From a virus: DNA of 21,365 nucleotides. The position numbers and the translations under genes were made by a program. Location: positions 1 to 21,365 of IMG/VR virus record IMGVR_UViG_3300011113_000133; one strand, written 5' to 3'. The notes under the pieces are model-generated. The model saw only the letters and a program-made list of their open reading frames with translations, made no database searches and was not told where the DNA came from. Below are positions 1-21,365 of the stretch, piece after piece (position 1 is the first letter of the stretch; the number at the start of each line of letters is the position of its first letter).

Positions 1-20
1 ATTAGAAATAGGTGCATAAT

Positions 21-266
21 ATGGCAACAGGCGCAGAAGTATTAAATATGCTAATCCCAACTGGCGGTTGGGTAATTACTGGTGATGAATATGAAGGCAT
101 AAAATTTTTAGAAGCCGAGCCAATTACTAAAACAGAATTTGAAGCAGGGTTTGCTCAATATGATGCTCGGAAGGCTGAGCAAAAAACAGCGCAAGCAGCA
201 GCCAAAGCCGTTTTATTAGAACGGCTTGGTATAACCGAAGCCGAGGCTAAACTGCTTTTAGCATAA
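21..266 (+). CDS. small tail-associated protein, copy A
   Basis: An 81-residue protein of unknown function. Its acidic C-terminal part (LLERLGITEAEAKLLL) matches the C-terminus of the gene at 16436-16642 (VLERLGISEEEAKLIV). A charged Ala/Lys/Gln helix precedes that motif. In the second copy this gene directly follows the tail-fibre gene, so the sequence just left of this window should be a tail gene of the preceding unit. Small genes ending in a similar motif are common after the last tail gene in actinophages; a role in tail tip or fibre assembly is only inference. A GTG at 12 is in frame, but ATG 21 has AGG about 8 bases upstream and is preferred. Confidence 0.7.
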   Translation: MATGAEVLNMLIPTGGWVITGDEYEGIKFLEAEPITKTEFEAGFAQYDARKAEQKTAQAAAKAVLLERLGITEAEAKLLLA

Positions 267-286
267 TCTTAGGGAAGTGTGTCGAT

Positions 287-706
287 TTGGAACCAAAGTT
301 ATGTGCAGCTGGTGAGAAGTTAAGAGATCAAGTTGATACGTGGTTTCCAGATAGGCGTACTGCCAGTGATGGGTGGGTGGGCGATAGCCGCCATTCCACC
401 AGAAAATCGGATCATAATCCAGACGAGTTTGGGTGGGTCAGAGCAGTTGATATTGATTCTAGGTTGGAGTCATCCGAAAGCCTCGCACCTTATCTGGCTG
501 ACCAAATCCGAATTGCAGCCAAGTCGGATCCACGCATATCATACGTCATCTATAACAGGCGAATATGCTCGAAGGTATTAAATTGGAAATGGCGAAATTA
601 CAAAGGCATAAACCCACACACAAAACACATTCACGTAAGTTTCACAAAGTTAGGCGACCTAAGCGGCGCAGAGTTCGATATACCACTACTAGGGGGCAAG
701 TTATGA
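287..706 (+). CDS. endolysin, M15-type peptidase, copy A
   Basis: Peptidoglycan peptidase of the M15 (D-Ala-D-Ala / L-Ala-D-Glu peptidase) type, 139 residues, single catalytic domain. The zinc-site motifs are visible: SDHNPD followed by VRAVDID (the family's SxH...D pattern) in the first half, and HTKHIHVSF near residues 110-120 (the HxH pattern). No cell-wall-binding domain and no signal peptide, so it would need the adjacent holin to reach the wall. It starts with TTG at 287; AGGGAAG at 271-277 is a good ribosome site, and the start aligns with ATG 16642 of the homologue (PKLC conserved). Its stop overlaps the holin start (ATGA). Confidence 0.85.
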   Translation: MEPKLCAAGEKLRDQVDTWFPDRRTASDGWVGDSRHSTRKSDHNPDEFGWVRAVDIDSRLESSESLAPYLADQIRIAAKSDPRISYVIYNRRICSKVLNWKWRNYKGINPHTKHIHVSFTKLGDLSGAEFDIPLLGGKL

Positions 707-843
707 ATATGAAAAATCCATACGTACTAACACTGGGCGCATTCTTATCAGCCTGGGCAGCATCCAATTTCGCAGCTGACTACCGCTCAATTCTATGGGC
801 ATTATTAGCAGGTGTATTTGGTTATGCAACTCCGAAAAAGTGA
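703..843 (+). CDS. putative holin, copy A
   Basis: A 46-residue protein with two short hydrophobic stretches, about residues 7-23 and 29-42, separated by a short polar turn and ending in a basic tail (TPKK). This is the pattern of a small two-helix holin. Its start overlaps the endolysin stop by four bases (ATGA), giving tight translational coupling, and its own stop overlaps the next gene (GTGA). The assignment rests on size, topology and its place between the endolysin and a second membrane gene. The gene at 17063-17242 is in the same place in the other module but is barely similar in sequence. Confidence 0.65.
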   Translation: MNMKNPYVLTLGAFLSAWAASNFAADYRSILWALLAGVFGYATPKK

Positions 844-1037
844 CCGCTGCAGAATGGGCTGGTTTTGCCGCAGGTATCACCGCCGTCTTACTAGGTTTCT
901 TTGGGGGTCTCCGCTATCTTATTAAAGGATGGCTCTGGACATTAACACCTAACGCTGGATCATCTCTCGCAGATCGCTTGGCAAGAATTGAAACACGCCA
1001 AGAGGAAATGATGAGAATACTTGTGGATAAGAAGTAA
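840..1037 (+). CDS. second lysis-cassette membrane protein, copy A
   Basis: A 65-residue protein with one N-terminal transmembrane helix (about residues 7-28, starting TAAEWAGFAAGI) and a C-terminal charged, probably coiled-coil segment (LADRLARIETRQEEM). Homologous to 17239-17451: AEWAGF and the GGLRY motif are shared. Actinophage lysis cassettes often carry two small membrane genes after the endolysin, so this is a candidate second holin or holin regulator. GTG 840 overlaps the previous stop by four bases and corresponds to the TTG start used in the same way in the second copy. A longer frame opening at 795 is not supported. Confidence 0.65.
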   Translation: MTAAEWAGFAAGITAVLLGFFGGLRYLIKGWLWTLTPNAGSSLADRLARIETRQEEMMRILVDKK

Positions 1038-1047
1038 CCTTATACAC

Positions 1048-1293
1048 ATGGCTACTACACGCAAGCGTAAAAAAATTAACAAGCGCAGGGTGCGTAAATC
1101 GCCTGACCCATTAACTAAATTAGATCAATGGTATATTGCAAAACATGAAATGTTTAGAGCTGCACGCAAGGCAGGATTTTCAGAGTCTGTTGCGCTCTAT
1201 CTAATGGATAGCCCAGAGTCTATGCCCGACTGGATTGTAGGCGACAAAGGGATTATTCCCATGATTCCTACTCCAGATGAGGATGAAGATTAA
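1048..1293 (+). CDS. small basic/acidic 'PDW' protein, copy A
   Basis: An 81-residue soluble protein of unknown function. The first 20 residues are very basic (RKRKKINKRRVRK), the middle looks helical (WYIAKHEMFRAARKAGF), then comes a conserved PDWIV motif, and the end is acidic (DEDED). The same architecture is encoded at 17411-17680. In both modules the acidic tail is encoded by bases that also encode the start of the metallophosphoesterase in another frame (17-base overlap). ATG 1048 is chosen over an in-frame TTG at 1021, which would overlap the previous gene. Partner or regulator of the next gene is possible from this coupling, but not shown. Confidence 0.65.
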   Translation: MATTRKRKKINKRRVRKSPDPLTKLDQWYIAKHEMFRAARKAGFSESVALYLMDSPESMPDWIVGDKGIIPMIPTPDEDED

Positions 1294-2038
1294 GCGTTGG
1301 TTAGTAATCTCAGACCTGCAGGTCCCATATCAATTGGATTCTGCCGTAAAGAATGTAATCAAGTTGGCCAGGCGGGAAAAGTTCGATTCTGTATTGGTAG
1401 TCGGCGATGAGATTGACTTTCAATCGATTAGCAAATGGAGCGAGGGCACACCTCTGGCTTATAGCGAGGATTTACACGCTGATCGTGAATTATGCAAGCA
1501 GGTACTTTGGGATATCGGTGAGTACAGTCCAGAAATGCATATTATCAGGAGTAATCATACTGATCGCTTATATAACACTTTATTAAAAGTACCAGGCTTA
1601 ATTAATTTGCCTGAACTACAATACCCAGCCTTCATGGGGTTTGCAGATATGGGGATGACATACCATCGCAAGGCCTATGAGTTCCATCCCGAATGGGTGC
1701 TTTGCCACGGAGATGAAGGCAATATGAGCCAACACGCGGGTATCACGGCCCTTAATTTGGCCAAGAAATTTGGCAAGTCAGTTTTAGCTGGGCATTCGCA
1801 CAGGCTGGGCATGAGTGCCTATTCAGAGGGCGTAAACGGCCATTACAGGGCCTTATATGGGGTTGAGGTAGGAAACCTTATGGATCGCAAGAAAGCGGGC
1901 TATATTCGCTATAACAGCGCTAATTGGCAGAATGGTTTTGCTATACTTGAAGCCGCAGGGAAGACGCTGACACCAACGTTGGTGCCTATTGACCCAAAGG
2001 ATGGCTCATTTACCGTACTAGGCAGGTATTACGGGTAA
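1277..2038 (+). CDS. calcineurin-like metallophosphoesterase, copy A
   Basis: Two-metal phosphoesterase fold, 253 residues. Motifs in order: SDLQ (12-15), GDEID (43-47), SNHTD (92-96), CHGDE (143-147) and AGHSHR (171-176). This covers the usual D-x-H, GDxxD, GNH, GH and GHxH set, except that the first motif has Gln for His and the third has Ser for Gly; both changes also occur in the copy at 17664-18410. The substrate cannot be read from sequence: nucleic acid, cyclic nucleotide and protein phosphate are all possible. It starts inside the preceding gene (17-base overlap), the same geometry as in the second module, so the two are probably translated together. A 111-base gap follows. Confidence 0.85.
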   Translation: MRMKIKRWLVISDLQVPYQLDSAVKNVIKLARREKFDSVLVVGDEIDFQSISKWSEGTPLAYSEDLHADRELCKQVLWDIGEYSPEMHIIRSNHTDRLYNTLLKVPGLINLPELQYPAFMGFADMGMTYHRKAYEFHPEWVLCHGDEGNMSQHAGITALNLAKKFGKSVLAGHSHRLGMSAYSEGVNGHYRALYGVEVGNLMDRKKAGYIRYNSANWQNGFAILEAAGKTLTPTLVPIDPKDGSFTVLGRYYG

Positions 2039-2149
2039 ATCGTTACCAAACCGTTATACAAATTAGCCCCAAAACTATCCACAAAGTCATACACAGGTGG
2101 GATACTTGGGCTGTACCACGAAACATAGTAATGGTGCAGACGGGCTACA
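2039..2149 (+). promoter_or_regulatory. intergenic gap with three DnaA-box-like sequences
   Basis: This is the longest stretch without a gene in the window. It holds three same-strand 9-mers each close to the DnaA box TTATCCACA: TTATACAAA (2054-2062), CTATCCACA (2075-2083) and TCATACACA (2087-2095). The middle one differs at a single base. The first two begin 21 bases apart, and the second and third 12 bases apart. A replication-origin or DnaA-responsive role is inference. The second module has no equivalent here. Confidence 0.3.
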
Positions 2150-2275
2150 ATGAATAAAGTAAAGAAATCAGGATACATAACTTGTGCCGCATGTGGGGCC
2201 AGATGTGTAGTGCAAAACGATCTGAGATTTTATTGCTCAGATGATAAATGCCAATCTTCGTTGGTGCGCCAATGA
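2150..2275 (+). CDS. zinc-ribbon miniprotein (41 aa)
   Basis: A 41-residue protein with cysteines arranged as C-AA-C-GAR-C followed by C-SDDK-C near the end, a plausible single zinc-ribbon knuckle pair. The rest is basic (NKVKKSGY). It has no relative in the corresponding slot of the second module. Its stop overlaps the start of the next gene as ATGA, which supports real translation. It is one of several Cys-rich miniproteins in the window; nucleic-acid binding or protein-protein contact is typical of such folds, but no specific role can be assigned. Confidence 0.6.
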   Translation: MNKVKKSGYITCAACGARCVVQNDLRFYCSDDKCQSSLVRQ

Positions 2276-2568
2276 AAATACAAATAGATATTAAAGCCAC
2301 CGATTTTGAACAGTTGTGGATCAACTCAATGGAATGGAACGGCCAGGACTGGGAAAAACAATTAAATCGATTCGAACCTGCTCCATTATTAACATGGAAG
2401 TATGCGTATTGGTTTGATAATTATGCTGCATTAAAAATGGCCCAGGCATTTATAAGTGCAATGGGATCTAATCAAGCTACACACAGCGATGAAGCAACGG
2501 GAGATTGGGTACTTTTGACTAATTATGCAAGCCCATGCCACCTACGCAAAACCCTGGTGAGCGCATGA
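2272..2568 (+). CDS. unknown protein (98 aa)
   Basis: Not recognised. A 98-residue soluble protein, rich in Trp and other aromatics in its first half (LWINSMEW, WKYAYWFDNY), with a more polar C-terminal half. No signal peptide, membrane helix or metal motif. ATG 2272 is chosen because it overlaps the preceding stop (ATGA); an earlier ATG at 2248 lies inside the zinc-ribbon gene. It ends with another four-base overlap into the membrane gene. Found only in module A; the matching slot in the second module holds an Lsr2-like protein. Confidence 0.6.
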   Translation: MKIQIDIKATDFEQLWINSMEWNGQDWEKQLNRFEPAPLLTWKYAYWFDNYAALKMAQAFISAMGSNQATHSDEATGDWVLLTNYASPCHLRKTLVSA

Positions 2569-2777
2569 ATAACTGGTTAGATTTTAGAAATCTTGTTGAG
2601 CAGTTTGCTTGGGCAATGTTGGGCGTTCTAATTGGATACTTGTTTATTACAAAAATCATCAATGATGCCAAAGATCGGTACTACTGGCTGGGCCGTAAAG
2701 ACGGCTGGGATATGCATCGCAGAATGATCAACAACAAGGTTAAAACCGATGAGGTATTTGACTATGACAAAAACTGA
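2565..2777 (+). CDS. small membrane protein, copy A
   Basis: A 70-residue protein with one transmembrane helix (about residues 13-32, WAMLGVLIGYLFI) and a cytoplasmic-looking tail containing a Gly-Trp motif (RKDGWDMHRR). The gene at 18716-18880 has the same layout, with a tail of GYKEGWADGYRRG, so this is a conserved backbone gene of unknown function. In both modules it overlaps the DUF6378-like gene downstream. ATG 2565 overlaps the previous stop (ATGA) and is preferred over an ATG at 2535. Confidence 0.65.
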   Translation: MNNWLDFRNLVEQFAWAMLGVLIGYLFITKIINDAKDRYYWLGRKDGWDMHRRMINNKVKTDEVFDYDKN

Positions 2778-3060
2778 GAAGTTGCTAGCTGATGTTGTCG
2801 ACTTGGTTCATACACGCGGATCGCTCTATGGCCATCCTTACACAAACCATAAAAGGATCAGTGAACTCTGGTCGGCATATCTCGACCATCCAATTACACC
2901 TAGTCAAGTCGCACTATGTATGGCGCTCGTCAAGGTTTCTCGGATTAGTGAATCTCCAAATCACAGCGACTCAATCAAAGACGCTATTGCTTACCTTTCG
3001 ATATACCAGACCGTGCTTGACGCAGAAATGGATCTCAACTACACGTGGGGGAATGACTAA
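2764..3060 (+). CDS. DUF6378-like protein, copy A
   Basis: A 98-residue all-helical protein resembling the phage DUF6378 family, whose function is unknown. Visible family features: RGSLYGHPYTNH near the N-terminus, LWSAYL, ITPSQVALCMALVKVSR in the middle, and a HSDSIKDAIAYLSIY C-terminal helix. Homologous along its length to 18831-19139, where LWEAYF, ICMALVKLAR and WVDAVAYFAI align. ATG 2764 is preferred over ATG 2749 because GAGGT lies about 10 bases upstream and the homologue also starts close to the conserved part. Its stop shares a base with the next start (TAATG). Members of this family often sit among phage early genes. Confidence 0.7.
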   Translation: MTKTEKLLADVVDLVHTRGSLYGHPYTNHKRISELWSAYLDHPITPSQVALCMALVKVSRISESPNHSDSIKDAIAYLSIYQTVLDAEMDLNYTWGND

Positions 3061-3695
3061 TGGCCTTTAACTTGCAAGATTACGAAACAGTCGAGAGTCG
3101 GCTGGAAAAATGGTGGAAGGATTACCCAGATGGAAGAGTTGCAACCAAAATCGAACAGGTTACAGACACTCGATACATTGTTAGTGCTGAATTATTTAAA
3201 GCGAAAGACGATTGGCGGGCATGTGCGACCGGGCTTGCTAGCGAAAGCATTGCGGATCGCGGTGTTAATTCAACTTCTGCACTGGAGAACTGTGAGACTT
3301 CAGCAATCGGCAGAGCGCTTGCAAACGCAGGTTATGCAGCTAAGGGCAAGAGGGCTAGCCGAGAAGAAATGACAAAGGTTGCAACTTATTCACCGCCTAA
3401 CACCAGAGCGAGAGCTGTTGAAGATGTGTTGCGGGCTTCCTTTGCCGAAGATAAACCTGCAGTATGGAGTATCGGCGATGCAATAGAAGCAATGCCAGTT
3501 AACCCTAAAGCCCAGGAATGTAATCACGGCCTAATGATTTTAAAGGAGGGTGTGGCCAAGACGGGCAAGCCATATTACGGTTATGTTTGCAGCGCAGCAA
3601 AACCCGATCAATGTGAACCTCGTTGGGCCAAAATGACGGCTGCTGGCGCGTGGTTCTTTCCAAGCGATGTTGAAGAGGGGAAAGGAGGCGAATAA
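3060..3695 (+). CDS. putative ssDNA-annealing protein with C-terminal zinc motif, copy A
   Basis: A 211-residue protein with two parts. Residues 1-105 start FNLQDYETVESR and contain the strongly conserved ENCETSAIGRALAN followed by a basic KGKRASREEM segment; this resembles the core of phage ERF/Rad52-type single-strand annealing proteins, though the family is not certain. The C-terminal part (from about residue 155) has a C-HG-LKEG-Y-YVCS-QC-W pattern, likely a small zinc-binding domain. Both parts are repeated in the 230-residue homologue at 19361-20053. It is the only replication/recombination-type gene visible in module A, so it may help the phage use host replication through recombination. 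Starts at TAATG overlap. Confidence 0.5.
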   Translation: MAFNLQDYETVESRLEKWWKDYPDGRVATKIEQVTDTRYIVSAELFKAKDDWRACATGLASESIADRGVNSTSALENCETSAIGRALANAGYAAKGKRASREEMTKVATYSPPNTRARAVEDVLRASFAEDKPAVWSIGDAIEAMPVNPKAQECNHGLMILKEGVAKTGKPYYGYVCSAAKPDQCEPRWAKMTAAGAWFFPSDVEEGKGGE

Positions 3696-3859
3696 TGGGA
3701 TACGTTGAATTAAAAGATGGATCAGGATTCACTCTACGAATAGAAAACGACAAGAGAACCCTGACACCATCAACGGACCGATGTGTTAGCTGTAATGACG
3801 ACAGACTATTAACAGACGGTATTTACCTAGTATGCACTCAATGTCACTGTAGGCAATAG
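3695..3859 (+). CDS. zinc-ribbon miniprotein (54 aa)
   Basis: A 54-residue protein with a C-VS-C pair near residue 31 and a C-TQ-C-H-C cluster at the end. The first half is short and probably beta-strand (YVELKDGSGFTLRI). It starts on the last base of the preceding stop (TAATG), with AAAGGAGG just upstream as a strong ribosome site. No homologue by eye in the second module, although that module has different Cys-rich miniproteins in the same slot. Function unknown. Confidence 0.6.
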   Translation: MGYVELKDGSGFTLRIENDKRTLTPSTDRCVSCNDDRLLTDGIYLVCTQCHCRQ

Positions 3860-3869
3860 AGATATTAGC

Positions 3870-4115
3870 ATGAAACATGCCCAGTTCAAGTGTAACGGCT
3901 GCAAGCGGAGCACCGAATTTTTGTGGTTGGATCAACTTGATATGCCAGACGGATTTAAAGCATATCAATGCATGGATTGTGGGTGTGTCGGTGTCAAAAA
4001 TATAGCCGAAGCGCTTACTATACCTGACTCGGAGGTTATCCGATGCGATAAGTGTGGCAGTTGGAAGTTTATTACCGTGGTCTGCCACACTTGTGCACTA
4101 ATTAAGGAGAAGTAA
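3870..4115 (+). CDS. double zinc-ribbon protein (81 aa)
   Basis: An 81-residue protein with three CxxC pairs and a final single pair: C-NG-C near residue 8, C-MD-C near 34, C-DK-C near 59 and C-HT-C near 72. This spacing suggests two zinc ribbons. The middle is acidic with aromatic residues (LWLDQLDMPDGF). It is followed by a strong overlap into the methyltransferase gene (TAATG), so the two are probably co-translated; whether they work together is unknown. Present only in module A. Confidence 0.6.
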   Translation: MKHAQFKCNGCKRSTEFLWLDQLDMPDGFKAYQCMDCGCVGVKNIAEALTIPDSEVIRCDKCGSWKFITVVCHTCALIKEK

Positions 4116-4567
4116 TGCCGACAGGAAGGCGCAATTCAGGTGGAGATGATTATTATACTTCCCAATGGATATTTGATGGCCTGAAATTATGGTTTGATTT
4201 AGATCCTTGCTCTCCCATAATTGGGGGATGCGTTCCAGCTAAACATACCTATACAATCGAAACCGACGGCTTAAAACAGCCTTGGTTTGGCTTAGTGTGG
4301 ATGAATCCGCCATATAGCAAACCTACGCCGTGGATTGATCGCTTTATTTCGCATGGAAATGGCGTGGCTCTTTTGCCTTTTACGAATGGGCGATGGTGGT
4401 TTAATATGTGGAATCATGCTGATGCCATTATGCCCATTGCGTATAATCACAAGTTTGATCGGGCCGACGGTACTCGCAAAACAATTACTTTTAACACGGC
4501 TTTATATGGTATTGGCGGCGTAGCGGTTGAAGCTATTAATCGGTTTAATTTGCATAGGATCCGATGA
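4115..4567 (+). CDS. phage-type DNA N6-adenine methyltransferase
   Basis: Adenine methyltransferase of the phage Dam-like family (PF05869 type), which transfers a methyl group from S-adenosylmethionine to N6 of adenine. Visible features: DDYYTSQWIFDGL (11-23), FDLDPCS (27-33) and the catalytic motif NPPY (64-67) preceded by VWM. At 150 residues it is at the short end for the family, and there is no separate target-recognition domain. Present only in module A; the second module has a nuclease-like gene in the same slot. Likely role: protecting phage DNA from host restriction, which is inference. Four-base ATGA overlap with the next gene. Confidence 0.8.
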   Translation: MPTGRRNSGGDDYYTSQWIFDGLKLWFDLDPCSPIIGGCVPAKHTYTIETDGLKQPWFGLVWMNPPYSKPTPWIDRFISHGNGVALLPFTNGRWWFNMWNHADAIMPIAYNHKFDRADGTRKTITFNTALYGIGGVAVEAINRFNLHRIR

Positions 4568-4671
4568 ATACAGAATCCACCGATATTGATTGGGCTTATC
4601 AGAATGCATTGCGTGCGCAGTGGCTTAAAGATAATCCTAATTCACAGTACATAGGCTGGATGTCTATATGA
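4564..4671 (+). CDS. very small acidic ORF (35 aa)
   Basis: A 35-residue product starting MNTESTDIDWAYQNAL, predicted helical and rich in Trp and Asn. It starts in the methyltransferase stop (ATGA) and overlaps the next tiny gene in the same way. That chain of four-base overlaps is the main argument that it is translated. Nothing is recognised. Confidence 0.45.
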   Translation: MNTESTDIDWAYQNALRAQWLKDNPNSQYIGWMSI

Positions 4672-4757
4672 GTGAGGCTGGTTATGACCAAACGTGGATT
4701 GATCTTGATGACATCACACCCTACCTCGCCACGCCGTCTGACCTGCGGTTATGCTGA
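4668..4757 (+). CDS. very small acidic ORF (29 aa)
   Basis: A 29-residue acidic product (DQTWIDLDDITPYL in the middle). It is linked to the preceding ORF by an ATGA overlap. There is no recognisable family and no counterpart in the second module. A short peptide of this kind could be an inhibitor or a leader whose translation affects the downstream gene, but there is no direct evidence. Confidence 0.4.
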   Translation: MSEAGYDQTWIDLDDITPYLATPSDLRLC

Positions 4758-4773
4758 AAGCCCTTGACTGCTA

Positions 4774-5184
4774 ATGGTACGCTCTAGTTCGCATTCGCCC
4801 TCAAGGCGAAAAGGCGAGCCCCGTAGGGGATGGCTCGCAAGGTGCACGCTAGTTGGGTGCGCTCTATTTGTAGCACAAATGTTATGCCTTGAAAGAGCGG
4901 AATCTGCAGTTCATTATAAAACTAATCATTATCGTCAGTGGGCCTTTGTGCAGCTAAATAATCTAGATGAGTTCTATTGTATAGATGAGTTGTACTTCCA
5001 TGAATCACGTTGGAACCCTCATGCGCGTAATGGGTCACACTATGGAATACCACAAGGTAGGTCTAAGTGGTTGGCTACAGTAGATGGGTTTAAGCAGGTT
5101 GAATGGGGTATCAAATATAATTACAACAGATATGGTTCTATGTGTAATGCATTAGATCATTATAAGCGCAAGGGCTGGCATTAG
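4774..5184 (+). CDS. secreted transglycosylase-like (lysozyme-fold) protein, copy A
   Basis: A 136-residue protein with a basic N-terminus (about 1-23), a hydrophobic core (CTLVGCALFVAQMLCL, about 24-39) and AESA before a likely signal-peptidase cut. The mature domain has HESRWNPHARNGSHYG, the pattern of SLT/aggregation-promoting-factor-like transglycosylases, with the Glu of ESRW as likely catalytic acid, then RSKW and a KGWH end. Two cysteines (FYC and SMC) are conserved in the homologue 20622-21035 and may form a disulfide. It lies next to HNH and terminase, not in the lysis cassette. The ribosome site is weak, and hairpins lie in the first codons. Its stop overlaps HNH (TAGTG). Confidence 0.75.
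   Translation: MVRSSSHSPSRRKGEPRRGWLARCTLVGCALFVAQMLCLERAESAVHYKTNHYRQWAFVQLNNLDEFYCIDELYFHESRWNPHARNGSHYGIPQGRSKWLATVDGFKQVEWGIKYNYNRYGSMCNALDHYKRKGWH
4794..4838 (+). other. two adjacent inverted repeats in the 5' coding region
   Basis: TTCGCC (4794-4799) pairs perfectly with GGCGAA (4805-4810), and GCGAGCC (4814-4820) pairs perfectly with GGCTCGC (4832-4838), with further CC/GG pairing inside. GGCGA at 4813-4817 could also compete for TTCGCC. They lie 18-62 bases downstream of the start of the transglycosylase-like gene and could slow its translation. The second copy of the gene also has inverted repeats here. Confidence 0.5.
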
Positions 5185-5558
5185 TGGTTAACAAGAAGCC
5201 TAAGCATCAACGAGCTATGGGTAGCACGCAATGGAAGAAACTAAGACTCATGGTGTTAGACAGGGATGGCAGGATCTGCTACGCATGTGGGCAGGAGGCT
5301 AATGAAGTGGATCATATATGGCCACGCGCTAAGGGCGGTGATATGTTCGACCCACTAAATTGTGCAGCCATTTGCCGTGCGTGCAACCTCGCTAAAGGGG
5401 ACCGTTTTTTTAGCCCTACGCCGACCCCCCCTGCCTTTCGCTTCAATAACTCTCCAAAAGGTGCAAATCAATCCAAATCAGTTCAAAACGGACATACAAC
5501 AATCCACGTTGATGCTGATTCACCCTTTATTAGTCCAAGTCAGCCGGGGGCTAATTGA
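5184..5558 (+). CDS. HNH endonuclease, copy A
   Basis: HNH homing-type nuclease domain of the kind encoded next to the terminase in HK97-like phages, where it is needed for DNA packaging in studied cases. Of 124 residues, 1-75 are the domain: C32-YA-C35, ANEVDH (39-44, catalytic His), N59 and C64-RA-C67-N68 with K71. The remainder is a disordered-looking tail rich in Pro, Asn and Ser. It begins with GTG inside the previous stop, and its own stop overlaps the terminase TTG start. Partial homologue at 21139. No small terminase subunit is recognisable, so HNH takes that place in the order. Confidence 0.85.
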   Translation: MVNKKPKHQRAMGSTQWKKLRLMVLDRDGRICYACGQEANEVDHIWPRAKGGDMFDPLNCAAICRACNLAKGDRFFSPTPTPPAFRFNNSPKGANQSKSVQNGHTTIHVDADSPFISPSQPGAN

Positions 5559-6961: not shown

Positions 6962-6985
6962 AATGCTAGATATGTCCGTTTTGTA

Positions 6986-7001
6986 TGCTATCATTAAACG
7001 A
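6986..7001 (+). promoter_or_regulatory. candidate leaderless promoter of the portal gene
   Basis: In the 39-base gap after the terminase, TGC-TATCAT forms an extended -10 element (hexamer 6989-6994, five of six bases matching TATAAT). Its expected start point falls on or next to the A of ATG 7001. The portal gene has no Shine-Dalgarno sequence, so both facts fit a leaderless transcript, which is common in Actinobacteria. No clear -35 is seen. Confidence 0.45.
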
Positions 7002-9656: not shown

Positions 9657-9676
9657 TAGGTAAGTAATACGAGTTA

Positions 9677-9703: not shown

Positions 9704-9725
9704 CTAACATTAGAAAGGATAAACA

Positions 9726-10795: not shown

Positions 10796-10801
10796 GCTAA
10801 C

Positions 10802-11221: not shown

Positions 11222-11239
11222 TTTAACAAAGGGGCAAAC

Positions 11240-15455: not shown

Positions 15456-15464
15456 GGAGAACAA

Positions 15465-16427
15465 ATGGCAGGCGCAGGATATAAGCTCTTTAACACAGGC
15501 GATGTGTTAACGGCAGCTCAGGTTAATACGTATTTACAAGAGCAAACAGTTATGGTGTTTGCTAGCTCTACTGCTCGCACAACTGCATTATCTGGCGTGT
15601 TAGCTGAAGGAATGATGTCTTATCTGCAAGACACGAATGCTGTTGAAGTTTACAATGGATCAGCTTGGGTAGGTGTTAGCGGTGCAGGTGATTTGACTGA
15701 AATTGTTGCAGGCACAGGCATAACAGTTACATCTGGAACTGGCCCAATACCAACAGTTGCTTTAACTACGCCCGTTGCAGCTACGAATGGTGGAACAGCA
15801 CAAAGCACTTACACTACAGGCGATTTGTTGTATGCTTCAGCTTCTAATACTTTAGCAAAAAGAGCGATTGGTTCAACAGGTCATGTATTAACTGTTGCAG
15901 GTGGAATCCCAACATGGGCAGCACCTGCCGCAAGCAGTAGCGGACTAACTTTAGTTTCTGCAACTACTTTTTCCTCAGTAACTTCACATTCAGTCAATAG
16001 TTGCTTTAGTTCTACTTATCGCTATTACAAAATTATTTGCGATTTTACAGAAAATTTAACTGGTAATACTACATTAAACTTTAGATTAAGAGCTTCAAGC
16101 ACAGATACTACGACAAATTATACGGATGTTATGGGAACAATGTATAACACGAACTTTGACGTTTTAACTGGCGGCTCTGGTGAAGTATATTTAGGCGACC
16201 TTGCCGGCGGTATGACTTTGGGTGCTTTAGAAATGACTTTATTCAATCCTAATGGAGCTGCGCCAACAGGTTATCATCACGTTTATACAGGTTTTAAAAA
16301 TACTTCTCTAGAAAGTCATATGGGCTCTGGTGTTCAAACCGCAAGCACCGCATTTGATGGCTTTACTATTTACATTGGCACTACAAATATGTCTGGCACA
16401 ATCAAAGTCTATGGCTACGCAAATTAG
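15465..16427 (+). CDS. tail fibre / receptor-binding protein candidate
   Basis: A 320-residue protein at the end of the tail genes. Residues 1-75 contain YKLFNTGDVLTAAQVN and QTVMVFASSTARTTAL, a conserved N-terminal module of many actinophage tail proteins, with NAVEVYNGSAWVGVS after it. The middle has short Gly/Thr repeats typical of fibre stalks (TEIVAGTGITVTSGTGP, NGGTAQSTYTTGDLL). The C-terminal half from about residue 165 is a beta-rich domain with RYYKIICDF and many Thr/Asn residues, a likely receptor-binding head. It has a strong ribosome site (AAGGAG). The host range of this phage may be set here. Confidence 0.72.
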   Translation: MAGAGYKLFNTGDVLTAAQVNTYLQEQTVMVFASSTARTTALSGVLAEGMMSYLQDTNAVEVYNGSAWVGVSGAGDLTEIVAGTGITVTSGTGPIPTVALTTPVAATNGGTAQSTYTTGDLLYASASNTLAKRAIGSTGHVLTVAGGIPTWAAPAASSSGLTLVSATTFSSVTSHSVNSCFSSTYRYYKIICDFTENLTGNTTLNFRLRASSTDTTTNYTDVMGTMYNTNFDVLTGGSGEVYLGDLAGGMTLGALEMTLFNPNGAAPTGYHHVYTGFKNTSLESHMGSGVQTASTAFDGFTIYIGTTNMSGTIKVYGYAN

Positions 16428-16435
16428 GAGTTAAG

Positions 16436-16642
16436 ATGAAACCGCAAATTAGTATTGTTGATGCAATTACAGGTGAGCAGATTGTTAGAGAAATGAATGA
16501 TGATGAGTTTGCTCAACACGAAATTGATCAAGCAACTGCCGCAGAACGCGAAGCATTAAAACAGACAAAAAAAGCTGAAAAACTTGCTGTCTTGGAACGT
16601 TTAGGAATAAGCGAAGAAGAAGCAAAACTAATTGTATTCTAA
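16436..16642 (+). CDS. small tail-associated protein, copy A'
   Basis: A 68-residue protein homologous to the gene at 21-266; only the C-terminal part (VLERLGISEEEAKLIV) is clearly conserved. The rest is a charged helix. GGAG lies 8 bases upstream of the ATG. It follows the tail fibre by 8 bases and overlaps the endolysin start by one base (TAATG). It marks the left border of the second module. Function unknown; tail-tip assembly is possible. Confidence 0.7.
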   Translation: MKPQISIVDAITGEQIVREMNDDEFAQHEIDQATAAEREALKQTKKAEKLAVLERLGISEEEAKLIVF

Positions 16643-17217
16643 TGCCTAAACTGTGCAAAGCTGGTCAGCAATTACGCGAGCAGATAGATGATGCGTTCCC
16701 CGATAGAAGTCGAACTTCACCAGAGGGGTGGCTCGGTGATCAACGTCATGCAGCGCGTAAGTCCGATCACAATCCAACTGCTGAAGGCATTGTTCGTGCC
16801 ATTGACATTAACGCTAACTTGCAATCCAACCCAGCCGAAGCATTTGATTTGGCGGATCAGTTACGGCTACTTGCCAGAACTGATAAGAGAATCAGTTACA
16901 TTATCTTCAACGGCAAAATTGCCAGTTGGAAAAAAAACTATAAGTGGAGAAAATACACAGGCATAAATCCACATAAAACACACATTCATATAAGCTTTAC
17001 TGCTAAGGGCGATACAGATGGCAGTATGTTTCAAATCCCTATATTGACAGGAGAGCCCTTAAATGGAGCAAGCAAAAGCAGTAGCAGCAAGTTGGGCGAG
17101 AAGCTTCTTGGCCGCCGGAATCGCAACTTACTTGGCAGTAGGTTGGGATGCACCTGCAATTGTAAATGCAGCGTTGGTGGCGAGCCTTCCAGTAATTCTT
17201 CGTTGGTTAAACCCTAA
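16642..17217 (+). CDS. endolysin, M15-type peptidase, copy A', with 3' extension
   Basis: M15-type peptidoglycan peptidase, 191 residues. Catalytic motifs: SDHNPTAEG with VRAIDIN, and HKTHIHISF near residue 115. Residues 1-140 align with the copy at 287-706. That copy ends after its QIP/DIP and 'LLGGKL' region, but this one lacks the stop and runs on for about 50 residues of Ser/Gly/Cys-rich sequence (CTCNCKC) read from bases that also encode the holin in another frame. The extension therefore looks like overprinting after stop-codon loss. ATG 16642 gives TAATG coupling to the previous gene. Confidence 0.82.
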   Translation: MPKLCKAGQQLREQIDDAFPDRSRTSPEGWLGDQRHAARKSDHNPTAEGIVRAIDINANLQSNPAEAFDLADQLRLLARTDKRISYIIFNGKIASWKKNYKWRKYTGINPHKTHIHISFTAKGDTDGSMFQIPILTGEPLNGASKSSSSKLGEKLLGRRNRNLLGSRLGCTCNCKCSVGGEPSSNSSLVKP

Positions 17218-17242
17218 CGATACGGCGTTTGGTCGGCGTTGA
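17063..17242 (+). CDS. putative holin, copy A'
   Basis: A 59-residue protein with two hydrophobic segments, about residues 12-26 (FLAAGIATYLAVGW) and 31-47 (IVNAALVASLPVILRW), separated by a short DAP turn and ending in a basic RR tail. Topology matches a small holin. It lies inside the 3' end of the endolysin frame but in a different phase: 155 bases are shared. Ribosome site AGGAGAG lies about 7 bases before its ATG. Its stop overlaps the next gene's TTG (TTGA). In module A the equivalent holin starts in the endolysin stop, so this arrangement supports the gene despite the long overlap. Confidence 0.7.
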   Translation: MEQAKAVAASWARSFLAAGIATYLAVGWDAPAIVNAALVASLPVILRWLNPNDTAFGRR

Positions 17243-17451
17243 GCCCGGCTGAATGGGCAGGCTTTGTAGCTGCCATCCTTTCCTGCTGTGCGCTTATTGT
17301 CGGTGGGCTTAGATACATTATCCGACATGAAGTGCCTTCAATACTTGAAGCATCAAATATCGTGTCGCGCATAGATAAACTTGAATCAATGGTTCTAGAA
17401 TTGCTTACTCATGAGCGCAAGAAGAATCTCAAAAAGCGAACAAGCCGCTAA
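17239..17451 (+). CDS. second lysis-cassette membrane protein, copy A'
   Basis: A 70-residue protein with one transmembrane helix (AEWAGFVAAILSCCALIVGG, residues 4-23), the GGLRYIIR motif, then a coiled-coil-like segment (SRIDKLESMVLELLTHERKK) and a basic end. Aligns with 840-1037 by the AEWAGF start and GGLRY. It starts with TTG within the holin stop, just as the other copy starts with GTG within its holin stop. Candidate second holin or regulator of lysis timing. Confidence 0.65.
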   Translation: MSPAEWAGFVAAILSCCALIVGGLRYIIRHEVPSILEASNIVSRIDKLESMVLELLTHERKKNLKKRTSR

Positions 17452-17680
17452 ACGCAAGCGCAAAGAAGCGGCTGCGCGCAAAACAACAACAGACATCCTG
17501 CGACCCATTGATATTTGGGCTGCATCAATTGTTGAATGTTTTGAAGCATTAGTTCGTGCTGGATATGGTGAAGATAGGGCGCGCTGGTATATTGAAGAAC
17601 AGTTGCGCTTGCCCGATTGGGTAATACAGAATCCTAATCATTCGCCATTTGAAGATGATGAAGATGAGGATGACGATTAA
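17411..17680 (+). CDS. small basic/acidic 'PDW' protein, copy A'
   Basis: An 89-residue protein matching 1048-1293: basic start (KRKRKEAAARK), central helix (IWAASIVECFEALVRAGYGE), PDWVI motif and an acidic end (DDEDEDDD). The acidic tail overlaps the phosphoesterase start by 17 bases, exactly as in the other module. It also overlaps the upstream membrane gene by 41 bases. Function unknown; the preserved coupling to the phosphoesterase suggests a linked role. Confidence 0.65.
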   Translation: MSARRISKSEQAAKRKRKEAAARKTTTDILRPIDIWAASIVECFEALVRAGYGEDRARWYIEEQLRLPDWVIQNPNHSPFEDDEDEDDD

Positions 17681-18410
17681 GCGAATTGTAGTTATCTCAG
17701 ATCTACAAGTTCCATTCCACGATAAGAAAGCTGTTAAAAATGTTGCCCAGTTCATCAGAAAATACAAGCCTGATGACGTTCTATGTGTGGGCGATGAAAT
17801 TGACTTCCAAACAATTAGCCGCTGGTCAACAGGTCGGGATGAGTGGTCGGGAAGCATTGGTAGAGATCGTGATGAAACTGTGCGAGTTCTCGCCGAGCTT
17901 CAGGTTAGACACCTCAGCCGAAGCAATCACGGGGCAAGACTTTACAACTCACTAAGCAAGCGCCTGCCTGGGCTTATTGGTCTGCCTGAATTGACCATTG
18001 AGAAGTTTTTGCATTTGGATGATTTAGGCATTACATACCACAGCAAGCCATATCAGTTCCACGATGGCTGGGTAATGGTTCACGGCGATGAGCAGAGCAT
18101 TAAGCCACAAGGGGGTTTAACAGCCCTAGAATCGGCTAAGAGGCATGGATTGTCGGTGGTCTGTGGTCATACCCATAGACAAGGCATTTCAAGCTTTACA
18201 ACGGCTTCTGGGGGCGTTTTAAGGGGTATACTGACAGGCTTTGAGGTTGGACATTTGATGGATGAGAGCCAAGCCTATTACACACGCGGAACATTTAACT
18301 GGCAAAAGGGTTTTGGAATCATCTACATAGACAGAAAGCGTGTTCAGCCAGTAGCCATACCGATTGAAAAGGATGGCAGCTTCTTAGTTGAAGGCAAGCG
18401 ATATGGTTGA
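17664..18410 (+). CDS. calcineurin-like metallophosphoesterase, copy A'
   Basis: A 248-residue phosphoesterase homologous to 1277-2038. Motifs: SDLQVPF, VGDEIDFQ, SRSNHGAR, VMVHGDEQ and CGHTHRQG. The first motif again has Gln where the family has His, and the third has Ser in place of Gly; here the Asp/Glu after SNH is also absent (SNHGA versus SNHTD). ATG 17664 is chosen over ATG 17649 because it gives MRM at the start and the same 17-base overlap as copy A. Substrate unknown. A tiny ORF overlaps its stop. Confidence 0.85.
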   Translation: MRMTIKRIVVISDLQVPFHDKKAVKNVAQFIRKYKPDDVLCVGDEIDFQTISRWSTGRDEWSGSIGRDRDETVRVLAELQVRHLSRSNHGARLYNSLSKRLPGLIGLPELTIEKFLHLDDLGITYHSKPYQFHDGWVMVHGDEQSIKPQGGLTALESAKRHGLSVVCGHTHRQGISSFTTASGGVLRGILTGFEVGHLMDESQAYYTRGTFNWQKGFGIIYIDRKRVQPVAIPIEKDGSFLVEGKRYG

Positions 18411-18486
18411 TGACATCTTTCCAATTCATAGAACTATTGATGATCACATGGATAACTTTGATGGCGTGTCGCTGATTGACAAATAG
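18403..18486 (+). CDS. very small acidic ORF (27 aa)
   Basis: A 27-residue acidic product beginning MVDDIFPIHRTIDDHM. It overlaps the phosphoesterase stop by eight bases and has AAGG about 9 bases upstream. There is no family match and no counterpart in module A, where a zinc-ribbon gene follows instead after a gap. It may be a real short peptide or chance. Confidence 0.35.
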   Translation: MVDDIFPIHRTIDDHMDNFDGVSLIDK

Positions 18487-18501
18487 CATATAGACCCTTC
18501 A

Positions 18502-18524
18502 AAATAGGATTTGAAATCCTATTT
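18502..18524 (+). promoter_or_regulatory. perfect inverted repeat upstream of the Lsr2-like gene
   Basis: AAATAGGATT (502-511) and AATCCTATTT (515-524 of the 18,000s) form a perfect 10-bp dyad with a 3-base centre; TTCAA/TTGAA flanks extend it with one unpaired base. It sits 16 bases before the ATG of a DNA-binding gene and is AT-rich, so it could be an operator for that protein or a hairpin. No U-tract follows. Confidence 0.6.
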
Positions 18525-18540
18525 GAAAGGGGTTTAGGGC

Positions 18541-18726
18541 ATGGCGATTAGATATGATCGTAAATCGGGTGCGTATACCGATGGCAAGCACTTTGTGCGA
18601 GCTTCATTCATACGCGATTACGCAAAAAAAAAACTAGGCATGAGCCAAGAACGCGGCAGAATTAGTCGCGAGGTTTTGGCTGCCTACTTTCTTGATGTGC
18701 ATGGGGTGAGCGATGATGTTGAATGA
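18541..18726 (+). CDS. Lsr2-C-terminal-domain-like DNA-binding protein
   Basis: A 61-residue protein resembling the DNA-binding half of Lsr2, the actinobacterial nucleoid protein that silences AT-rich foreign DNA by inserting an R-G-R loop into the minor groove. Here RGR is at 38-40, preceded by a helix IRDYAKKK (24-31) and followed by ISREVLAAYFLD, the same helix-RGR-helix order. The Lsr2 N-terminal oligomerisation domain is absent, so it might bind alone or interfere with host Lsr2. An A10 run at 18624-18633 lies in the coding sequence; the frame is open through it. AAAGGGG precedes the ATG. Module A has no equivalent. Family call is by pattern only. Confidence 0.5.
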   Translation: MAIRYDRKSGAYTDGKHFVRASFIRDYAKKKLGMSQERGRISREVLAAYFLDVHGVSDDVE

Positions 18727-18880
18727 TATTCGTTTAGTTGAGTTAGCTCTCTACTGCTTTTTATTTGTATTAGGTGCATACACAATCGGTGTATTCATTA
18801 AGGAAAAAGGATATAAGGAAGGCTGGGCAGATGGTTACAGACGGGGCAAAGCAGTTGCGAGCGAAAGATATATTGACTAA
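18716..18880 (+). CDS. small membrane protein, copy A'
   Basis: A 54-residue protein with one transmembrane helix (about residues 9-28, ELALYCFLFVLGAYTIGVFI) and a positively charged tail with GWADGYRRG. Homologous in layout to 2565-2777, where the helix is followed by GWDMHRR. It overlaps the end of the Lsr2-like gene by 11 bases and the start of the DUF6378-like gene by 50. No function known. Confidence 0.6.
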   Translation: MLNDIRLVELALYCFLFVLGAYTIGVFIKEKGYKEGWADGYRRGKAVASERYID

Positions 18881-19139
18881 TGCAAACGACACGATCATTA
18901 ACAGAGGGTCAACGCATGGTCATTACGACCACACAATGCTACGAACAGCAAAGCTATGGGAAGCATACTTTGAAAGACCCATTGAGCCGATGGACATTGC
19001 AATCTGTATGGCATTGGTCAAGCTCGCAAGAATTATGGAAACTAAATCAAATAACGATTCTTGGGTGGATGCCGTTGCCTACTTCGCAATCGCCGGAGAA
19101 CTCGCGGTCAAGGATTGGAATGATCTTAATGCTTTCTAG
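18831..19139 (+). CDS. DUF6378-like protein, copy A'
   Basis: A 102-residue helical protein aligned with 2764-3060: RGSTHGHYDH, LWEAYFERPIEPMD, ICMALVKLARI and WVDAVAYFAIAGEL. The pattern is that of the DUF6378 family of phage proteins, whose role is unknown. ATG 18831 has AAGGAAGG about 10 bases upstream and is preferred to a TTG at 18774. Its last codons overlap the following Cys-rich gene. Confidence 0.68.
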   Translation: MVTDGAKQLRAKDILTNANDTIINRGSTHGHYDHTMLRTAKLWEAYFERPIEPMDIAICMALVKLARIMETKSNNDSWVDAVAYFAIAGELAVKDWNDLNAF

Positions 19140-19368
19140 ATCACCTAAGGGAACTTGGTGTGATTACTGTAAAAACAGACATGGCACTAGCAGTTTACGT
19201 GGACAAACGCAAGCTGTATGGCAAGTTACTAGCAAACGATATGGCAAGTTAATTGTCAGGCATTACTGTCAATCTTGTGCTAATGAAGTTCAGGCATGGC
19301 CTGATGGCACAACCTGGACTTTGAAAGAACAAATTGACTATGCAAAAGGAGAAACCCTAGATGTTTAA
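19129..19368 (+). CDS. Cys-rich zinc-binding protein (79 aa)
   Basis: A 79-residue protein with C-DY-C near residue 11 and C-QS-C near residue 50, i.e. a two-pair zinc site separated by a beta-rich segment (AVWQVTSKRYGKLIVRHYC). The end is polar. The frame is longer upstream, but that part shadows the DUF6378-like gene; the start is taken at ATG 19129. Its stop overlaps the next gene by eight bases. There is nothing here in module A, so it is an insertion between two backbone genes. Function unknown. Confidence 0.6.
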   Translation: MLSRSPKGTWCDYCKNRHGTSSLRGQTQAVWQVTSKRYGKLIVRHYCQSCANEVQAWPDGTTWTLKEQIDYAKGETLDV

Positions 19369-20053
19369 TTTAGATAACTATGAAGATGTAGATACGAGGA
19401 TACACAAGTTTTATGAAACCTTTGAAGACGGCTCAATACTCACAGAACTCATCACGAATGACGAAGAAAAAGGCATTGTTGTATTTAAGGCAGTTGCTTA
19501 TCGCACCCACGTTGATACTGCTCCTTCCGCTGTGGGTTATGCGCGCGGCGCTCGCAAAGATAGGGGTGTGGATCGCGATTTTTGGTTTGAGAATTGCGAA
19601 ACTAGCGCAATTGGAAGATGCCTGGCTAATCTCGGACTTAGTGCTAAAGGAAAGCGAGCAAGCAGCCTTGAAATGGCTAAGGTTAATCAAGCTCAATCAG
19701 ACACTCCAATACGTGTTCGCACAGAAAGTCATAAACAATTTCTTCAAACAACAAATCCAAATGCTGAAATAGTATGGGATACAACTATTGAGCCACCTGA
19801 GGATGTAGACCCAGCATTTGACAATGCGCTTGATCTACTGAAAGAAAAGGTTGGAGCTCATCCGCTTCCCATGTGTAAGCACGGCGCACGTTTGCTAAAA
19901 GAAGGCACAGGTGCTAAGGGCGCATATAGAGGCTGGACTTGCAGCTTGCCAATGAAGCGTAAAGCTGAACAATGCAAAGCAATTTGGATGATGCTAAGCA
20001 AGGATGGCACATGGTCATTTAGGCCAGAAGATGAAGAATTGTTAGTGGGGTGA
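19361..20053 (+). CDS. putative ssDNA-annealing protein with C-terminal zinc motif, copy A'
   Basis: A 230-residue homologue of 3060-3695. The N-terminal part has FNLDNYEDVDTRI, ENCETSAIGRCLANLG and KGKRASSLEM. The C-terminal part has C-KHG-LLKEG, GWTCS and EQCKAIWMM, i.e. the same likely zinc-binding module. The linker differs in length. Resemblance to ERF/Rad52-type annealing proteins is by motif pattern; a firm family assignment would need a profile search. It is the main candidate for DNA metabolism in this module. AAAGGAG lies just upstream. Confidence 0.5.
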   Translation: MFNLDNYEDVDTRIHKFYETFEDGSILTELITNDEEKGIVVFKAVAYRTHVDTAPSAVGYARGARKDRGVDRDFWFENCETSAIGRCLANLGLSAKGKRASSLEMAKVNQAQSDTPIRVRTESHKQFLQTTNPNAEIVWDTTIEPPEDVDPAFDNALDLLKEKVGAHPLPMCKHGARLLKEGTGAKGAYRGWTCSLPMKRKAEQCKAIWMMLSKDGTWSFRPEDEELLVG

Positions 20054-20057
20054 ATAG

Positions 20058-20168
20058 ATGTTAGTGATGGATAAATTACTTGACGTGTGCGACAATTGCA
20101 ACGAGCCAATAACGGCTGGGTCTGCAAAACCTTGCAAATGCCACACATGTCAAGCTAGGACTAACTAA
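20058..20168 (+). CDS. zinc-ribbon miniprotein (36 aa)
   Basis: A 36-residue product (start MLVMDKLLDVCDNCN) with C-DN-C and C-K-C-HT-C, enough for one zinc site. It lies four bases after the annealing-type gene and its stop directly abuts the next GTG. In module A the slot also begins with a Cys-rich miniprotein, but the sequences do not align by eye. Function unknown. Confidence 0.5.
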   Translation: MLVMDKLLDVCDNCNEPITAGSAKPCKCHTCQARTN

Positions 20169-20504
20169 GTGAGTAATCAAAGTCGCAAGCATAGAGGCTA
20201 TGCAACGCAGCGCATTGTAGCAGAATACTTGCAAGGGCAAGGCTGGAAACATGCGCTACCTGTTGGTGCTGGTAGAGATGGCTCGGACATCACGGGAATT
20301 GATGGCCTAGACATTGAAATCAAAGCTAGGACAAATCTGGACCTGTCAGGGCTAATGCGCCAACTTCATGATCGCAAGGCAAACAAAGGGATGGGCGTAG
20401 GCGTTCTACGTCTAAATGGTCAGGGTGAGAAATCCGTTGAGCAGTATGTGGCTGTTCTCACCTTGGCTGACTTAGTATATTTATTGCAGGCAAGTGGCTA
20501 CTGA
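20169..20504 (+). CDS. PD-(D/E)XK nuclease, Holliday-junction-resolvase-like
   Basis: A 111-residue protein with RKHRGYATQRIVAEYLQ at the start, then GAGRDGSDITG (D40), GLDIEIKA (E50, K52) and a C-terminal helix-strand region with MGVGVLRLNG. The D...ExK spacing and size match phage resolvase-like nucleases of the PD-(D/E)XK superfamily; such enzymes cut branched DNA before packaging. Starts with GTG directly after the upstream TAA. Module A lacks it and has an adenine methyltransferase in the same slot. Alternative: a small restriction-like or VRR-NUC-type nuclease. Confidence 0.65.
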   Translation: MSNQSRKHRGYATQRIVAEYLQGQGWKHALPVGAGRDGSDITGIDGLDIEIKARTNLDLSGLMRQLHDRKANKGMGVGVLRLNGQGEKSVEQYVAVLTLADLVYLLQASGY

Positions 20505-20604
20505 ACCTTATCTAATACATCGTTGCAAAGGATGTGGATTATGGATATATGGAAAAAGAGATTACTGCGAAGAGTGCAACACGCCCGAAGTTACGCACAA
20601 ATAA
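20494..20604 (+). CDS. zinc-ribbon miniprotein (36 aa)
   Basis: A 36-residue product (MATEPYLIHRCKGCG...) with C-KG-C near residue 11 and C-EE-C near residue 25, spaced as in a compact zinc ribbon. It begins inside the nuclease gene with GTG, with no stronger start nearby. It lies directly before the secreted transglycosylase-like gene. Function unknown. Confidence 0.5.
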   Translation: MATEPYLIHRCKGCGLWIYGKRDYCEECNTPEVTHK

Positions 20605-20621
20605 AGACTAGATTTGACATC

Positions 20622-21035
20622 ATGGCTATGCTTAGCATGCCAGCAAGCCTGAAAGGCAGCTTGCACGGCAAGCAAGCATTGGCCAGAGCTATGTTTATTG
20701 CTGGCTTAGCAATTGCACTACTGCCGCTGCAAACAATACAAACAAACGCTGCTGAAAAGCGCAGCTACCACATTATGAATATTAAGTTATATGCCTACAA
20801 CAAAATGGAATGGAAGCAGTTTGAATGCTATAACTGGCTTATTTATCATGAGAGTAGATGGAACTACAAAGCAAGAAATGGTAGTCATTACGGATTAGGT
20901 CAAATGCGATCTAAGTGGTATGGCACACTTAATCCATATAAGCAAGTAGATGCACATCTTAAATACTTGATTACAAGATATGATGGTTGTGCATGTAAGG
21001 CATATCAACATTGGAAGGATAAGGGATGGCATTAG
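20622..21035 (+). CDS. secreted transglycosylase-like (lysozyme-fold) protein, copy A'
   Basis: A 137-residue homologue of 4774-5184. N-terminus basic (KGSLHGKQALAR), hydrophobic core (AMFIAGLAIALLPL), probable cut after TNAA. Mature domain: YHESRWNYKARNGSHYG with Glu as likely catalytic acid, GQMRSKW, then KQVDAHLKYL and a KGWH end; cysteines in FEC and CAC match the other copy. The frame is open upstream to 20523, but ATG 20622 gives a normal signal peptide and a length equal to the other copy (136). Export by Sec is expected; it may loosen the wall independently of the holin/endolysin pair or act on the wall at infection. Confidence 0.72.
   Translation: MAMLSMPASLKGSLHGKQALARAMFIAGLAIALLPLQTIQTNAAEKRSYHIMNIKLYAYNKMEWKQFECYNWLIYHESRWNYKARNGSHYGLGQMRSKWYGTLNPYKQVDAHLKYLITRYDGCACKAYQHWKDKGWH
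20643..20677 (+). other. competing inverted repeats in the 5' coding region
   Basis: GCTTGC (20659-20664) can pair perfectly with GCAAGC at 20643-20648 on its left, or with GCAAGC at 20668-20673 (3-base loop) or 20672-20677 on its right. The hairpins are mutually exclusive and lie in codons 8-19 of the transglycosylase-like gene. Copy A of the gene also has hairpins there. Confidence 0.45.
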
Positions 21036-21148
21036 GTAAATGCATAGAATGCAAACAAGATACAGATGAAACAGAGTTAATAGTGCATAAAGGTGATCTA
21101 TCAACTATGTGCATTGATTGTTATGACAGGTTAGACAAATGGCGTTAA
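21026..21148 (+). CDS. zinc-finger miniprotein (40 aa)
   Basis: A 40-residue product with C-IE-C near residue 6 and C-ID-C near residue 29, an acidic spacer (DTDETE) and a basic end. It overlaps the transglycosylase-like gene by ten bases and the HNH gene by ten. It sits between two genes that directly touch in module A, so it looks inserted. AAGGG is the ribosome site. Function unknown. Confidence 0.55.
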   Translation: MALGKCIECKQDTDETELIVHKGDLSTMCIDCYDRLDKWR

Positions 21149-21365
21149 AGCCATATAGAGCTACTTCCCATTGGAAGAAGATAAGGTTAAAGGTGCTTAA
21201 TCGTGATGCATGGACTTGTAACTATTGTGGGGAATCTGCTAATGAAGTTGATCACGTATATCCCAAGTCAAAGGGCGGTGAAGATACGCTTGATAATCTG
21301 GTGGCTGCGTGTAGAAGGTGCAACATCAAAAAAAAGGATGCCGTTTTTTTAGGCTCAGCTTCTAC
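21139..21365 (+). CDS. HNH endonuclease, copy A' (cut by window end)
   Basis: First 75 residues of an HNH nuclease: C27-NY-C30, ANEVDH (34-39), N53 and C58-RR-C61-N62, then KKKDAVFLGS. It aligns with 5184-5558 throughout. The window stops inside a codon, so the 3' end and the expected terminase gene are missing. The T7 run at 21344-21350 occurs in the same place in copy A but in another codon phase. By the order in module A, a large terminase should follow. Confidence 0.85.
   Translation, partial: MALKPYRATSHWKKIRLKVLNRDAWTCNYCGESANEVDHVYPKSKGGEDTLDNLVAACRRCNIKKKDAVFLGSAS

Follow-up and report, generated by a model that had tools for sequence, protein, structure and literature searches.

A virus contig with a doubled accessory and lysis module is very probably made of two different cos-packaged miniphages joined head to tail

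Why would a small tailed phage carry two strongly diverged copies of one accessory and lysis module, one on either side of its structural genes? This is the question raised by the linear IMG/VR virus record IMGVR_UViG_3300011113_000133, which was analysed over its whole length of 21,365 b and is referred to here as the window. We believe that the window is, in all likelihood, formed by two different 'miniphages' with cos packaging, members of one uncultured family that are joined head to tail and are here called phage A and phage B, and not a single genome with a duplicated module. On comparison with related contigs it consists of two lineages, a cohesive-end site (cos) at which they are joined, and a complete phage B, as follows:

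1 to 5425, plus strand: incomplete phage A, of which the window covers the right end and not the core (A-clade comparisons of DNA, terminase large subunit (TerL) and phosphoesterase)
5426 to 5438, plus strand: cos, with the 13-nt cohesive end CCCCCCTGCCTTT, the meeting point of A and B (A- and B-clade contigs aligned around cos)
5439 to 21365, plus strand: complete phage B genome, a duplex of 15,927 b, from left to right physical end (contig-end pile-ups)

Each of the two modules is thus the right end of its own genome and neither flanks a core. The module appears on both sides of the B core because the right end of A precedes the left end of B. Taken together, the duplicated-module architecture is not real as a genome feature, whereas the cos junction and an HNH gene that spans cos are real.

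The doubling of the gene set is itself beyond dispute. When the open reading frames (ORFs) of the window were compared with each other by BLASTP, nine gene pairs were found in the same order, with amino-acid identities of 29-56% and E values of 3e-5 to 2e-76, which rules out chance. The original prediction had counted about eleven pairs; nine of these stand by sequence, and the two others, holin and small membrane protein, correspond in position but not in sequence. The start offsets between paired genes amount to 15.7-16.4 kb, and the previously given values of 16355, 16387, 16301 and 15955 agree with the ORF starts or the DNA repeat. At the DNA level the copies align over two short stretches only, of 59 and 56 nt, at about 80-82%. 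That the copies are homologous and diverged had been recognised correctly, and with 29-56% identity at the protein level a recent duplication or a plain concatemer is ruled out. Three of the pairs are those of the small tail-associated protein (37% identity), the second membrane protein (31%) and the PDW protein (29%); the HNH pair is described further below and the others are:

287 to 706, plus strand: endolysin-like, phage A copy (56% identical to 16642-17217; only an unnamed PHROG matched, and the function is the one proposed in the original prediction)
16642 to 17217, plus strand: endolysin-like, phage B copy (BLASTP pair with the A copy; without Pfam match)
1277 to 2038, plus strand: metallophosphoesterase, phage A copy (phrog_221, E 5e-61)
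17649 to 18410, plus strand: metallophosphoesterase, phage B copy (49% identical to the A copy; PF00149)
2749 to 3060, plus strand: DUF6378-like, phage A copy (41% identical to the B copy)
18774 to 19139, plus strand: DUF6378, phage B copy (Pfam PF19905, E 1.6e-21, in support of the label given earlier)
3060 to 3695, plus strand: putative annealing-type (Erf-like) protein, phage A copy (33% identical to the B copy; matches PHROGs of unknown function)
19361 to 20053, plus strand: putative annealing-type (Erf-like) protein, phage B copy (BLASTP pair with the A copy)
4774 to 5184, plus strand: transglycosylase-like, phage A copy (phrog_12661, E 1.5e-13)
20523 to 21035, plus strand: transglycosylase-like, phage B copy (39% identical to the A copy)

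The left copy additionally contains an 81-aa cysteine-rich ORF (3870-4115) and a Dam-type methyltransferase gene (4115-4567), neither of which was found in the right copy, and the right copy contains a 111-aa gene (20169-20504) not found in the left one.

Which of the two modules then belongs to the core? Every module gene was scored on each of 80 IMG/VR loci that are related to the window TerL. On contigs with a TerL of at least 86% identity the module genes, where present, are of the B type and never of the A type, the phosphoesterase typically being 87-99% identical to the right-hand copy as compared to 47-50% to the left-hand copy. Likewise, in contigs of this clade beginning with the left genome end, the phosphoesterase, where full-length, is of the B type in 13 of 13 cases (80-100%); what connects it with TerL in this set is the core, not a passage across the genome ends. 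Relatives of the A module, on the other side, were gathered via the left-hand phosphoesterase and endolysin; those with a full-length TerL all belong to another clade, with 56-58% identity to the window TerL. The tail genes of these A-module relatives are 34-42% identical to those of the window, as opposed to 74-97% in the B relatives. Since TerL relatives carry B-type modules and A-module relatives carry another TerL, the core belongs to the right-hand module only, and the notion of a single core flanked by two modules has to be given up.

Trees built from contigs carrying both genes place the window TerL and the right phosphoesterase in the same 14-row clade with a support of 100 each in the Shimodaira-Hasegawa-like approximate likelihood ratio test (SH-aLRT). 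The left phosphoesterase groups with the A clade (SH-aLRT 100), and a tree constrained to place it with B is rejected by the approximately unbiased test (p = 0.0009). These are quick trees with long branches between the clades, in which clade membership is relied on and the deep branch order is not. The A part of the window is collinear, with gaps, with contigs L121 and L401 over 212-5425 at 81-85% DNA identity, and its closest relative is a contig that is 81-85% identical over most of 212-5425 and continues through cos into an A-clade TerL.

The relatives of both clades are units of 15.7-17 kb with one module each. This bears directly on the alternative that both modules form a stable unit within a single larger phage genome or a tandem of prophages. 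The contig is continuous and the reading frames are intact in both modules, as such a genome would have them. Besides the size and single module of the relatives, however, it would have to contend with a functional-looking cos between the modules, where the terminase would cut, and with clade histories that differ between the two parts. Nor was an integrase among the families matched in PHROG and Pfam searches of the window, and no GTDB genome holds a close relative of the window TerL. We therefore regard a larger genome of this kind as scarcely credible. The earlier suggestion of two related phages in tandem, on the other hand, finds support, the two being different phages whose genomes meet head to tail at cos.

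Alignment to A- and B-clade contigs shows that the two lineages meet exactly at cos and in head-to-tail order. At the switch the window sequence runs from ...GCCCTACGCCG (A type) through ACCCCCCCTG (common) into CCTTTCGCTTCAATAACTCTCC (B type). The ends of other contigs mark the same place: 25 of the 80 TerL-related contigs start exactly at the base equivalent to 5439, 116 b before TerL, and 17 contigs stop exactly at the ...AC matching 21365. By these pile-ups both positions are physical genome ends, which also defines where the genomes of a large uncultured phage family physically end. Beyond 21365 there is no sequence of B that could be set against the terminase at 5555, a comparison that the original prediction had called for to the right of the HNH at 21139. 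Between the two lie 13 nt, CCCCCCTG[T/C]CTTT, which are absent from both types of contig end; this is the effect that end repair has on 3' overhangs. In some contigs the 13 nt are retained and followed by a short CT-rich non-template tail or Illumina adapter (L317). Such ends are expected from a library that captures single strands and thus argue for a 13-nt 3' overhang; the adapter that follows the overhang at the end of L317 marks the 3' end of the strand. From the contigs we infer a cos with a 13-nt 3' overhang and complementary single-stranded ends. In actinophages, cos ends usually have such 3' overhangs. The 13-nt cohesive end is near-identical across clades that share only 52-60% identity in TerL. 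Its one T/C site is T in A-clade and C in B-clade contigs, and at 5434 the window has C, the B type. An occurrence of the cos motif in the 46.5-kb contig L293 turned out to be only apparent, the sequence being unrelated.

The junction lies within a reading frame. Two rows of the window describe the gene in question:

5184 to 5558, plus strand: HNH endonuclease ORF running through cos, composed of an A-type domain (5184-5423) and an in-frame B-type tail (5439-5558) (PHROG HNH matches)
21139 to 21365, plus strand: HNH domain of phage B, without a stop before the genome end (3'-open ORF; 51% identical to the A copy)

In all 146 cos-spanning contigs with a recognisable HNH domain (L002, L121, L259, L278, L332 and others) the HNH frame is open through cos in one and the same phase, ACC CCC CCT G[T/C]C TTT, encoding the peptide TPP[V/A]F. 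Beyond cos it continues for about 19-41 residues at the left genome end, and in most cases its stop codon overlaps the TerL start or lies next to it. The ratio of nonsynonymous to synonymous polymorphism (pN/pS) of this tail is 0.41-0.73 over five length classes as compared to 0.83-2.23 in the other frames, and conservation of the tail at the codon level is seen in the HNH frame only. With its frame running through cos, the gene is therefore split by packaging and restored by circularisation. SfV, SfI, ST64B and the Streptococcus phage Pika, all of them cos phages, also have an HNH gene as the final gene at their right end. Different from the window family however, in which HNH runs through cos into the left end, the annotated HNH gene stops 58 b before the genome end in SfV and 87 b before it in Pika. 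A literature search that was thin on subscription journals brought up no report of an HNH gene across cos.

How could the right end of A have come to precede the left end of B? Reads across the junction, and hence joined molecules, are the simplest cause. Exact matches between the two parts reach 13 nt at most, so that a repeat-driven k-mer misassembly is unlikely. We infer that cohesive-end annealing and sealing joined A to B. The 3' overhang of A would anneal to the complementary overhang of B, leaving a single T:G mismatch provided that the A strain carries the usual letter of its clade, and subsequent sealing would give exactly the window, including the clean stop at the right end of B. 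The joining may have taken place in a co-infected cell, which would give a mixed concatemer, or in the DNA extract or library, where free virion ends could meet. We lean slightly towards the extract or library, because free ends are plainly common in the libraries of relatives. The T/C base was considered as a discriminator between joining in vivo and in vitro and is unable to separate the two. A further-reaching idea, which we put forward only tentatively and think doubtful as it stands, is that clades 52-60% apart in TerL keep a common cohesive end, through which co-infecting genomes join into mixed concatemers in the cell and swap the C-terminal tail of HNH, the window being a snapshot of this process. 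If joins do occur in cells, a cohesive end common to distant clades would be a testable route for genome mixing.

A join that falls at cos by accident, produced by polymerase chain reaction, multiple displacement amplification or scaffolding, has to be weighed at this point too. Chimeric ends do exist in related contigs, with Illumina adapter at the start of L011 and at the end of L317 and inverted artefact sequence at the start of L021. Yet the chance that a random chimera hits the 13-15 nt of cos is roughly 1 in 1000, it would not preserve the head-to-tail order together with the reading frame, and further contigs also cross cos into a different genome. A random event of this type is accordingly very improbable.

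Contigs longer than one genome support a general process. One of them, G001 (L395/L396, 24,775 b), holds 8.6 kb of one phage, a cos at 8600, a 16-kb genome, a second cos at 24634 and the start of a further left end, and its gene copies are 28-51% identical. Contig L233 was considered as an independent repeat of the second junction of this 24.8-kb contig; it matches that contig at 100% over its full length of 4,632 b, probably represents the same reads assembled twice and was not counted. The overlapping ends of other such contigs are 94% (G003), 85% (G005), 92% (G009) and 94% (G011) identical, those of G004 are near-identical at first and then strongly diverged, and only those of G006 overlap exactly (123 b). 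This set was picked for length and is biased, as assemblers collapse exact overlaps. Five over-length contigs (L397, L398, L399, L400 and L401) have overlapping ends of 76-94% DNA identity and are neither circular nor plain concatemers.

Across the 112 cos-spanning contigs with both arms, similarity in the left arm broadly tracks similarity in the right arm. The window is the most discordant of the 112, its best left-arm neighbour being 0.98 similar on the left and 0.10 on the right. A search for B right ends joined to A left ends gave 52 matches, mainly other clades with the same cos, and no B-right/A-left join. In L234 a B-like right end is combined with the left end of another clade, and in L266 the arms, less clearly than in L234, point to different clades; both are possible mixed junctions or recombinants.

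Could the window then stem from a phage that has the left end and core of B together with the right module of A? Such a phage would have to be present in the sample, and the assembler would have run from it through the shared core into the B module. Mosaic right ends are known in the family, L234 shows that a B-like right end can be paired with the left end of another clade, and the near-identical and then diverging ends of G004 are what such a course might look like. Then again, no B-clade contig carries an A-type module, the exact junction of an A right end with a B left end occurs in no IMG/VR contig besides the window in a search that may have lacked near-identical records, and the switch lies exactly at cos rather than inside a gene. 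Moreover, the first bases of the window have no overlap with the end of the B core, such as a branch in the assembly graph would leave, and no exact match exceeds 13 nt. An assembly through a shared core, which the original prediction had also offered, is therefore not upheld, the core being that of B only, and we consider the recombinant explanation unlikely. A head-to-tail junction of two phages has points to answer as well. The junction is one seen in an assembled contig; B has a free right end and a joined left end, an odd combination if B-to-B joins are common; and mosaicism in the family is genuine, so that a recombinant with an A right end and a B left end in this sample is possible. 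True inter-clade exchange of accessory genes is evident in L169 and L185, which combine an A-clade TerL with the phosphoesterase of another clade. These observations weigh against a joined pair of molecules and keep us from calling it certain.

What kind of phages are A and B? TerL, portal and major head protein are all present by PHROG matches, as in a cos-packaged tailed phage (Caudoviricetes) with HK97-like packaging genes. Among the cultured phages in the collection none exceeds 60% identity for TerL or phosphoesterase. The nearest cultured relatives by TerL reach about 30-31% identity and are mostly actinophages, namely Microbacterium, Arthrobacter and Mycobacterium phages with HK97-type packaging genes, whose records are 40-44 kb long as compared to 15.7-17 kb in the window family. 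A first scan of GTDB genomes by TerL found no relative, and all that a second one gave were distant prophage-like TerLs of actinobacteria, at 22-33%, and one binned contig. This contig, L423 (CAIXTG010000056.1), is a 10.4-kb member of the wider family in the bin of an uncultured actinobacterium, binning alone being a weak hint as to the host.

A freshwater-specific peak in phage genome size at about 15 kb is reported, with 'miniphages' of 13.5-15 kb (PMC6802176). These are likewise tailed and of ~15 kb, and the window family with its 15.7-17 kb is likened to them by size, not by alignment. Phage A is tiny and probably of freshwater origin.

Concatemeric viral contigs of IMG/VR, in which the same genome is repeated, are treated by CheckV as probable assembly artefacts and flagged by repeated k-mers (PMC8116208). 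Such concatemers are also longer than one genome and arranged head to tail; the window instead joins two different phages and is not a concatemer in this sense, with one genome repeated and a raised k-mer frequency. The k-mer flag would miss it because the A and B copies share no exact match of more than 13 nt. A literature search on cohesive-end chimeras, likewise thin on subscription journals, found nothing on point. The window exposes a class of contigs in public databases that are more than one genome long and cross cos into a different phage. They escape checks based on terminal repeats and k-mer frequency and would distort clustering as well as figures for genome size and gene content. 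A striking-looking genome architecture is in this way replaced by a cause that can be checked.

Both genomes are arranged as cos - TerL - portal - capsid - tail - endolysin - accessory genes - HNH - cos. The core genes of phage B in the window are:

5555 to 6961, plus strand: TerL (phrog_9, E 2.5e-69; in the B clade of the TerL tree, SH-aLRT 100)
7001 to 8116, plus strand: portal (phrog_12, E 4e-51)
8088 to 9656, plus strand: major head protein, apparently fused to the maturation protease (phrog_2263, E 6e-63; phrog_80 over residues 14-240)
10802 to 11221, plus strand: major tail protein (phrog_4574, E 4e-22)
12283 to 14211, plus strand: probable tape measure (by length, position and repetitive make-up; without family match)

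Between cos and TerL (5426-5555) no small terminase gene was seen, the space being occupied by the tail of the HNH ORF; among the matches of the HNH domain is one PHROG with a small-terminase label.

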